64,000 nucleotides of DNA from Pseudorhodoplanes sp. GTDB taxonomy: Bacteria > Pseudomonadota > Alphaproteobacteria > Rhizobiales > Xanthobacteraceae. The stretch is from positions 124,001-188,000 of the forward strand of contig JALHOD010000004.1 of assembly GCA_022843165.1 (NCBI GenBank), in the 5' to 3' direction. A program made the translations under genes and the position numbers. Below the pieces are notes generated by a model. That model made no database searches, was not told the origin of the DNA, and saw nothing but the letters and a program-made list of their open reading frames with translations. The number at the start of each line of letters is the position of its first letter. Position 1 is the first letter of the stretch. Below are positions 8,330 to 26,158 of the stretch, in pieces.

Positions 8330-8493
8330 AGAAAGAGTGCGGAGCCACATGAGCCGTCGGAATTGCGACCCCGGGAACCTACAGAAGTAGGTGGGCGCCA
8401 TATGTCCGGGCCCACGGGCCCGGTCAGGGACAGCTCCCTTCAGGATCGTAAGGCCCCGGGAGTATGAATATCCGTCGAACTCCGCAGCCCCGC
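8330..8493 (-). ncRNA. ssrS: 6S RNA
   Basis: The 260-base gap between zapA and the 5-FCL gene holds a long imperfect hairpin of about 160 nt on the minus strand, the expected size and place of alphaproteobacterial 6S RNA. The closing helix pairs TGCGGAG (8486-8480) with CTCCGCA (8344-8338). Inside it lie complementary CCCGGGG blocks, a central open region, a GGGCCC-rich arm and a terminal hairpin CACCTAC-TTCT-GTAGGT (8380-8397). A TAGATT -10-like element at 8505-8500 would start transcription near 8493. 6S RNA binds RNA polymerase holoenzyme as a promoter mimic. Ends are approximate. Identification rests on synteny plus structure seen by eye. Confidence 0.8.
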
Positions 8494-25016: not shown

Positions 25017-25535
25017 TCAGCTGGTGCGTTCGAAGGCCGCTTTCAGCAGGCCGAGCTGGCTTTCCACGGGATTGTTCTTGAACACAATCGGCTCTTCCGG
25101 GCCGTGCATGGTGGCATCCAGACGGCGCACCTGCTCGGTCAGCCGGTGCGAGCGCTCGATCAGATCGTTGAGCGCGTCCGGCAATTGCTTCATCGATTCC
25201 GGATCGCTCGGATGGCCGGCCGACAATTTGACCTTGGTCTTTTCCTGATTGACCTGCGCGAGCGACATCTCGCCTTCCTTGACGGCGCGATGCAGCAGCA
25301 GCCAGGAGGCGAGCTGCATCAGCCGCGTGGTCAGCCGCATGCTTTCGGTCGCATAGACCAGGGCCGCCGCGCGGCCCAGTTGCTTGGATTCCTTGCGGCC
25401 TGGCCCGTCGAGATAGGCCGCGGTCTCCTCGACCAGCGCCATGCCGTCCTTGAACAGATTGGAGAATGCCTGCGAATTCGCCAGCCTCTCCTTGAACAGG
25501 ACAGGACTGGAATCCTGAACGGATTTTTCCGACAT
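25017..25535 (-). CDS. rcdA: RcdA-family protease adaptor (DUF1465)
   Basis: 172 residues of the DUF1465 family, whose best-known member is Caulobacter RcdA, an adaptor that works with CpdR and PopA to present CtrA and other proteins to ClpXP at the G1-S transition. Family features: SQAFSNLFKDGMALVEETAAYLDGPGR near the N-terminus, then ESMRLTTRLMQLASWLLLHRAV, a three-helix-bundle core, and a charged, less ordered C-terminus. The assignment is from recognition of these segments. A perfect CtrA box lies 243 bases upstream (25778-25792) facing this gene, with a terminator in between. CtrA is reported to activate rcdA in Caulobacter, which fits. Confidence 0.8.
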   Translation of the reverse strand: MSEKSVQDSSPVLFKERLANSQAFSNLFKDGMALVEETAAYLDGPGRKESKQLGRAAALVYATESMRLTTRLMQLASWLLLHRAVKEGEMSLAQVNQEKTKVKLSAGHPSDPESMKQLPDALNDLIERSHRLTEQVRRLDATMHGPEEPIVFKNNPVESQLGLLKAAFERTS

Positions 25536-25660
25536 TTTTTACGCCTCACCCAACTCCAACCAAACAATACGCACGAGGCGGCTGCAGGGTAAAGCGAATG
25601 CGTTGCTAATTTAATTTCATAGTTGCCGATGAAGGTGAACGACCTGCCCCGATTTGACAC

Positions 25661-25688
25661 AAAAAAGAGCCGCCGTTTCCGGCGGCTC
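25661..25688 (-). terminator. Intrinsic terminator (minus strand)
   Basis: On the minus strand GAGCCGCC (25688-25681), a 6-base loop, GGCGGCTC (25674-25667) and six T (25666-25661). The T-run exists only on this strand. It lies between the CtrA box and rcdA, so it either ends a small RNA or attenuates rcdA. Confidence 0.88.
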
Positions 25689-25755
25689 AAGTTAATAACA
25701 GGGAGGCGTCAAACAGAGTGGACAGGAGCCACTCAACGTCCAGAAGATGGACGAG
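25661..25755 (-). ncRNA. Candidate CtrA-controlled small RNA (or attenuated rcdA leader)
   Basis: The 315-base gap 25536-25850 is AT-richer than its surroundings and on the minus strand holds three hairpins in a row. These are GTCCA-TCTTC-TGGAC (25752-25738), GAGTGG-CTCCTGT-CCACTC (25734-25716), and a terminator stem GAGCCGCC/GGCGGCTC (25688-25667) followed by TTTTTT. The linker carries CGCCTCCC and one loop carries CTCCT, both able to pair with Shine-Dalgarno sequences, as in several rhizobial trans-acting sRNAs. A CtrA box ends 23 bases upstream of the predicted 5' end. No ORF of note is present. Ends are estimates; the alternative is a leader of rcdA that terminates early. Confidence 0.55.
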
Positions 25756-25777
25756 GCTTAGTAATGCCTGAGAAAGC

Positions 25778-25792
25778 TTAACTTTAAGTTAA
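25778..25792. promoter_or_regulatory. Full CtrA-binding site
   Basis: TTAACTTTAAGTTAA: two TTAA half-sites separated by exactly 7 bases, the alphaproteobacterial CtrA consensus TTAA-N7-TTAA, and itself nearly palindromic. I found no other complete copy in the window. Reading toward lower coordinates, a TTACTA-like -10 follows 13 bases later, placing the box over the -35 region, the usual layout of CtrA-activated promoters. Confidence 0.75.
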
Positions 25793-25850
25793 ATGAGAAA
25801 TATTCAGTGAATCCAACCTGTTGAATTCAATCGATCAATTGTTGCATTCG

Positions 25851-26042
25851 CTACTTTTTGAAGAACTGATCCGCGGTCTTGAGCGACGCCTGTTTCGACA
25901 TCATCGCGGTTTCCAGCCGCGCGATTTCAGCCTGCAGAATTCCGATGCGCTCGCTCAGTTCCTGCACCGACAGCAGCGCGAGCTCCTGGCCGATCTCGTG
26001 CTGCAACTTTTTCTTCGGGCGGTCGTCGTCGATCGCGGTCAT
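25851..26042 (-). CDS. DUF1192 family small protein
   Basis: 63 residues, start ATG at 26042 (MTAIDDDRPKKKLQHEIGQ). The middle is a predicted coiled coil, SVQELSERIGILQAEIARLETAM, and the N-terminus is acidic-basic. This matches DUF1192, a short family restricted largely to alphaproteobacteria with no known activity. It is divergent from the quinone oxidoreductase and lies upstream of the CtrA box and candidate sRNA on the same strand. Confidence 0.8.
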   Translation of the reverse strand: MTAIDDDRPKKKLQHEIGQELALLSVQELSERIGILQAEIARLETAMMSKQASLKTADQFFKK

Positions 26043-26158
26043 GGCGCACCTCTTTGCGCCCCAAATTTAACCCGCTGCCGCATGGTTGTCACATCGGGTT
26101 CCGGCGACTAAACAACCTGCATCGCAGGCGAATTTCCGCGCATCATCAGGACACGCTC

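Follow-up and report, generated by a model that had tools for sequence, protein, structure and literature searches.

The names of the BjrC small RNAs (sRNAs) reportedly go back to Madhugiri et al. 2012. In the literature searched, one of them, BjrC1505, appeared in a single paper, within a table of Rfam hits, and its Rfam accession, RF02356, was not found. Nor did this search, which covered titles and the beginnings of abstracts among the matches listed and had the founding paper outside its scope, yield a regulator, a target, a conserved neighbour or a link to CtrA or rcdA for BjrC1505. The transcription start-site map of B. japonicum (PMC4842269) names BjrC68 and BjrC174 in its main text, which mentions neither BjrC1505 nor CtrA. 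For rcdA, conserved control by CtrA has been described by Brilli et al. 2010 (PMC2877005) in cluster A, Rhizobiales included, and the start-site map of S. meliloti (PMC3616915) reports a CtrA motif before rcdA as confirmed in that species.

A covariance search against Rfam, suggested in the first-pass annotation of the DNA studied here (a 64-kb stretch analysed at its full length, hereafter the window), produced a full-length match to RF02356 on the minus strand at 25660-25799 (positions 1-140 of 140, 109.7 bits with a cut-off of 50, E 2.2e-20). Because this match is full-length and above the cut-off, the RNA is not new; the small RNA that had been claimed from the letters alone is, by its match to the model, a member of an already catalogued and little-studied alphaproteobacterial family, BjrC1505. 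The box, the -10-like element, the hairpins, the linker, the CTCCT loop and the terminator of that annotation were all present at their minus-strand positions. The predicted transcript, ~94 nt long, would run from ~25754 to 25661 on the minus strand, with its start placed from the -10 and its end from the T-run. Folding of 25757-25660 gave -39.1 kcal/mol, against -21.6 ± 2.9 in dinucleotide shuffles, that is 6 SD lower (z-score -6.0). The closest named loci by DNA, a Pseudolabrys MAG and others, share ~80% identity. A 6S RNA (RF00013) was also found in the window, at 8338-8493 on the minus strand (82 bits, cut-off 46.4).

The RNA consists of two hairpins, a C-rich linker and an intrinsic terminator, and the covariation proposed as a check is clearly detected in relatives. 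In a set of 64 sequences, 13 of 19 pairs in the three helices showed changes on both sides, with 96.1% of cells paired, as would be expected of a member of RF02356 with conserved hairpins and terminator. By helix, this corresponds to four of five counted pairs in hairpin 1 (25737..25753, minus strand; 95.8% of cells paired), three of six in hairpin 2 (25716..25734, minus; 95.7%) and six of eight in the terminator (25661..25688, minus; 96.7%), which is formed by a 9-bp stem (25688-25667) and six T. None of 500 shuffles reached any of the five measures used, and slid versions of the structure paired at 35-58%. The counted structure was named from the window's own fold and leans towards that sequence. 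Loci L066-L145, picked because they share an exact 36-mer of the RNA (among the matches listed), are uninformative on variation in hairpin 2 and were therefore left out of this set. RNAalifold on the MAFFT alignment predicted the terminator only, and the count of terminator-like matches in 25400-26100, taken alone, did not exceed the chance expectation (one match against 0.8 expected).

Between the covarying helices, the linker GACGCCUCCCUGUU is nearly invariant. In the window it reads UUUGACGCCUCCCUGUUA (CGCCTCCC; 25696..25713, minus strand) and is proposed as the pairing seed; of the 11 columns that are invariant across the 64 sequences, six fall in the linker. UGA and UCC never vary there and the remaining letters of GACGCCUCCCUGU are each kept in at least 90%, in contrast to the variable loops. 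The CCUCCC of the window was predicted to be unpaired with a probability of 0.99-1.00, its flanks less so. The anti-Shine-Dalgarno element expected from the earlier reading is conserved in the form of the CCUCCC linker; the CUCCU loop of hairpin 2, to which that role had been given, varies in distant members.

Upstream of the RNA lies a CtrA-type box, TTAA-N7-TTAA (TTAACTTAAAGTTAA; plus strand TTAACTTTAAGTTAA), at 25778..25792 on the minus strand, the single exact occurrence of this pattern in the window (0 in 100 shuffles). To follow it across relatives, loci L001-L145 were used, less four without a usable core (L030, L056, L065 and L112) and six without full upstream sequence; the remaining 135 were dereplicated to 119. 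At least seven of the eight box letters were found in 117 of these 119 loci at -125..-60 before the linker (shuffles, 10.4 ± 2.9) and all eight in 51 (shuffles, 0.8), whereas a control stretch after the terminator had at least seven in six of 119. In 103 of the 119 loci, the distance from the start of the box to the linker is 79-84 nt. Its consensus can be summarized as TTWAC-N6-TTAA, and the whole promoter profile as TTWAC-N6-TTAAGCTTTC-N5-YATTACT. The last block corresponds to the -10-like element of the window (CATTAC at 25761..25766, or TTACTA at 25764-25759, minus strand), conserved 11 nt after the box, although a sigma-70 scan did not report the element at 25764-25759. Assuming a transcription start ~7 nt beyond the -10, the centre of the box would fall near -31, and an activator bound there would overlap the -35 region. 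CtrA activates from positions overlapping the -35. Conservation lends strong support to the CtrA box claimed in the first-pass annotation and, as far as the promoter sequence can tell, the gene would be a member of the CtrA regulon.

The Rfam model seems to include this promoter. Its positions 1-43 (window 25799-25757) formed 50.9% standard pairs in 119 rows (28-41% when slid), compared with 96.1% in the three helices, and the stretch contains both the box and the -10, which suggests that ~43 nt of the model are promoter rather than RNA.

The sRNA could be real and its box be read by another factor, or be merely an AT-rich -35 region, without CtrA being the regulator. In ~38% of loci, TTTA replaces TTAA in the first half-site. 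The profile also has a conserved GCTTTC after the second half; both features would suit such a reading, and a different regulator that recognizes a similar sequence could make use of this profile. However, the half-sites keep their 7-nt spacing in nearly all the loci counted above, far beyond the shuffles, and CtrA was found in 19 of 21 genomes searched. The genome of the window encodes CtrA (96% identity over 201 aa to the query) and GcrA as well. We consequently regard a box without CtrA as improbable.

Downstream of the sRNA lies rcdA (DUF1465; 25017..25535, minus strand), which encodes the adaptor for CtrA proteolysis. Its identification as an rcdA homologue was borne out by PF07323 (196.8 bits), by the NCBIfam RcdA equivalog (210.6 bits, cut-off 170) and by RcdA in the PDB (3ctw, E 4.8e-38). 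Upstream, a DUF1192 gene (25851..26042, minus; PF06698, 77.3 bits) is a conserved neighbour in many relatives. The arrangement with rcdA is also conserved: rcdA starts 112-287 nt downstream of the sRNA in 49 of 56 copies, and among 79 named loci it lies directly downstream in 73, with less than 300 bases of sequence left in four of the six misses. In the class-wide sample, rcdA was found within 1.5 kb and on the same strand in 19 of 47 other genomes with a model match.

Such proximity, together with the published control of rcdA by CtrA, would favour the other possibility raised in the first-pass annotation, namely that hairpins and terminator act as an attenuator within the leader of rcdA, with CtrA driving transcription through into rcdA and read-through being controlled. 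To this the distribution of the element is opposed, as it is not confined to rcdA leaders. Seven of the 56 copies have no adjacent rcdA, and sRNA, terminator and box persist in all 11 loci of this kind, four of them from the class sample (11 loci from 10 genomes, L048 and L054 being in one genome and L060-L062 in one genus). One of these genomes, G053, holds two sRNA copies (L048 and L054), both with an exact box, and rcdA was not found in it; G061 likewise has two copies. Beside rcdA, the sRNA has its box in 48 of 49 cases, whereas rcdA without the sRNA had a box of at least seven letters within 300 nt upstream in two of 17. These 17 are the 20 rcdA loci from genomes without an sRNA call, minus L301 (39.6 bits), L293 (34.2) and L303 (21.2), which were removed as carrying a possible or remnant sRNA according to an unfiltered model search. 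On this distribution, the box is to be assigned to the sRNA and not to rcdA.

Two further points speak against an attenuator. The conservation pattern of the linker would fit a trans-acting RNA, and rcdA may have a separate promoter of its own (TTTACC, 18 nt, TATTGT; 25564..25593, minus strand), recognized by eye and with similar blocks in close relatives; the latter point is weak because, even in the best 5-nt bin, the TATNNT peak comprised no more than 8 of 105 leaders. Since the box tracks the sRNA, the helices covary, and both box and synteny are conserved, a free CtrA-controlled sRNA is better supported than attenuation, which we rejected as the main reading and now hold to be quite unlikely. 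Partial read-through may nevertheless occur alongside the free sRNA. In G270, two tandem sRNA copies were observed just before rcdA (C10:31-139 and C10:233-338), with a third on another contig (C15:18-125).

We therefore consider it likely that this locus is a stand-alone BjrC1505 gene switched by CtrA, the RNA most probably acting in trans through its linker on ribosome-binding sites. CtrA would activate the gene from the box, which it would occupy over the -35 region; the resulting RNA, with its two hairpins, exposed CCUCCC linker and intrinsic terminator, would pair with purine-rich ribosome-binding sites and occlude them. BjrC1505 would in this way form an RNA arm of the CtrA regulon.

The family is frequent among relatives, 52 of 61 having an RF02356 match over the cut-off and 54 a match at E ≤ 0.001. 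The seven relatives without a match at this E-value comprise three in which no rcdA was found (G008, G013 and G039), two with an rcdA of weak score (G020 and G025) and two with a normal one (G044 and G057). Class-wide, RF02356 was over the cut-off in 14 of 289 genomes, the window's own included, and reached E ≤ 0.001 in 30; it matched none of 14 named control genomes, Caulobacter vibrioides among them. A second covariance model, built from the 64 sequences with the promoter left out, reached E ≤ 0.001 in 48 of the 289, and some of its weak matches are probably other RNAs. Of 30 model-match loci in the wider class (own included), anchoring succeeded for 26, among which 21 keep at least seven of the eight box letters. 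The other five have six letters (L227) or four to five (L246, L247, L251 and L253). The latter four show, at ~1500-1620, a C-rich sRNA of another type, which has a GAAGCCTCCC / GTGAAGCCTCCCTGT core and lacks the CtrA box; these loci may represent sRNAs of a different kind. Three of them match SorX below its cut-off and do not match BjrC1505. SorX matching does not separate the families cleanly, because the boxed L237, L240 and L252 also match SorX weakly, L252 with a better E-value than for BjrC1505.

Regarding targets, the neighbour rcdA is the sole specific candidate that we offer. Its ribosome-binding site in the window (GAGGCGT; 25541..25547, minus strand), GAGGCGU in the RNA, is complementary to ACGCCUC in the linker, and co-folding predicted a gain of 14.6 kcal/mol, a figure without a control. 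Within the window's bacterial family, linkers paired with rcdA leaders at a mean of -16.0 kcal/mol, compared with -11.3 when the linker was scrambled (an equally low value in 1 of 300). A helix of at least 7 was present in 28 of the 32 rcdA leaders; in three neighbouring genes (DUF1192 and L31 included) the corresponding figures were 5 of 32, 0 of 29 and 2 of 30, a comparison that uses helix counts rather than means. Moreover, rcdA was the strongest linker partner within its own locus in 33 of 56 named loci (9.9 expected), although these loci are related and the test gives no rank for the window, where rcdA was missed by ORF picking. With one genome per family, the pairing passed in only two of 20. 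A universal role of rcdA was consequently rejected, and since the pairing fades across families, rcdA is kept as a family-specific possibility. Other targets must presumably exist where rcdA is absent. A search of 13 genomes with a 15-letter complementary pattern, allowing up to two mismatches, gave no excess over the reversed control, and in G000 the only exact match was the sRNA gene itself.

In the window's bacterial family, repression of rcdA by the sRNA would spare CtrA from proteolysis. As a hypothesis for this lineage, CtrA would activate the sRNA, the sRNA would block RcdA translation through the GAGGCGU site, and CtrA would be protected from ClpXP, closing a positive feedback within one module of ~0.8 kb. 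We regard this complete loop as speculative and unlikely.

CcnA of Caulobacter, a putatively CtrA-activated sRNA with a C-rich loop acting on the ctrA and gcrA leaders (PMC8959179), could suggest that the RNA of the window is a CcnA-like regulator of these two genes. Yet the linker showed no mean excess of pairing with ctrA (19 leaders, -13.5 versus -13.8 kcal/mol for scrambled linkers) or gcrA (18 leaders, -14.6 versus -13.7). Four gcrA leaders (L305, L307, L308 and L309) reached -18 to -22 kcal/mol, a strength not conserved among the 18; with means at most 0.9 kcal/mol better than scrambled, both genes were rejected as targets. In addition, Caulobacter vibrioides is one of the control genomes without RF02356, the comparison with CcnA itself being one of descriptions. 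A CcnA-like function on ctrA and gcrA thus appears very improbable.

The association of BjrC1505 with CtrA across many Alphaproteobacteria gives a named sRNA a testable function. It also suggests that, where the sRNA is present, a CtrA box that was attributed to rcdA from its location may be that of the sRNA, a proposal made without per-species coordinates from the papers concerned. As far as the literature was searched, what is new is the wiring: a deeply conserved CtrA-type box goes with the sRNA, and the sRNA gene has a conserved position next to rcdA, the gene for an adaptor in CtrA destruction.

Several described RNAs resemble that of the window in part. Weak matches, below the respective cut-offs, were obtained with mmgR/suhB (RF00519, 24.5 of 41 bits), SorY (RF02651, 22.1 of 111) and SorX (RF02784, 14.2 of 46.6), and the likeness consists in a CUCCCU core before the terminator. 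Such anti-Shine-Dalgarno cores are common to SorX, mmgR-type RNAs and BjrC1505, a fact that we count against our best explanation, that of a CtrA-switched BjrC1505 acting through its linker. EcpR1 of Sinorhizobium meliloti, to which the first-pass annotation had pointed for comparison, is likewise an alphaproteobacterial sRNA tied to cell-cycle control, but it is described as lying downstream of divK-pleD, belonging to the stringent-response regulon and targeting dnaA and gcrA (PMC4414408), and the neighbours in the window are DUF1192 and rcdA. CcnA of Caulobacter crescentus is similar in its putative activation by CtrA and its C-rich pairing site, and differs, according to its description (PMC8959179), in being encoded at the replication origin and targeting ctrA and gcrA, whereas the gene of the window adjoins rcdA. 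With BjrC1505 as defined by RF02356 no difference was found in the RNA part; the Rfam model additionally spans the ~43 nt that behave here as a promoter.
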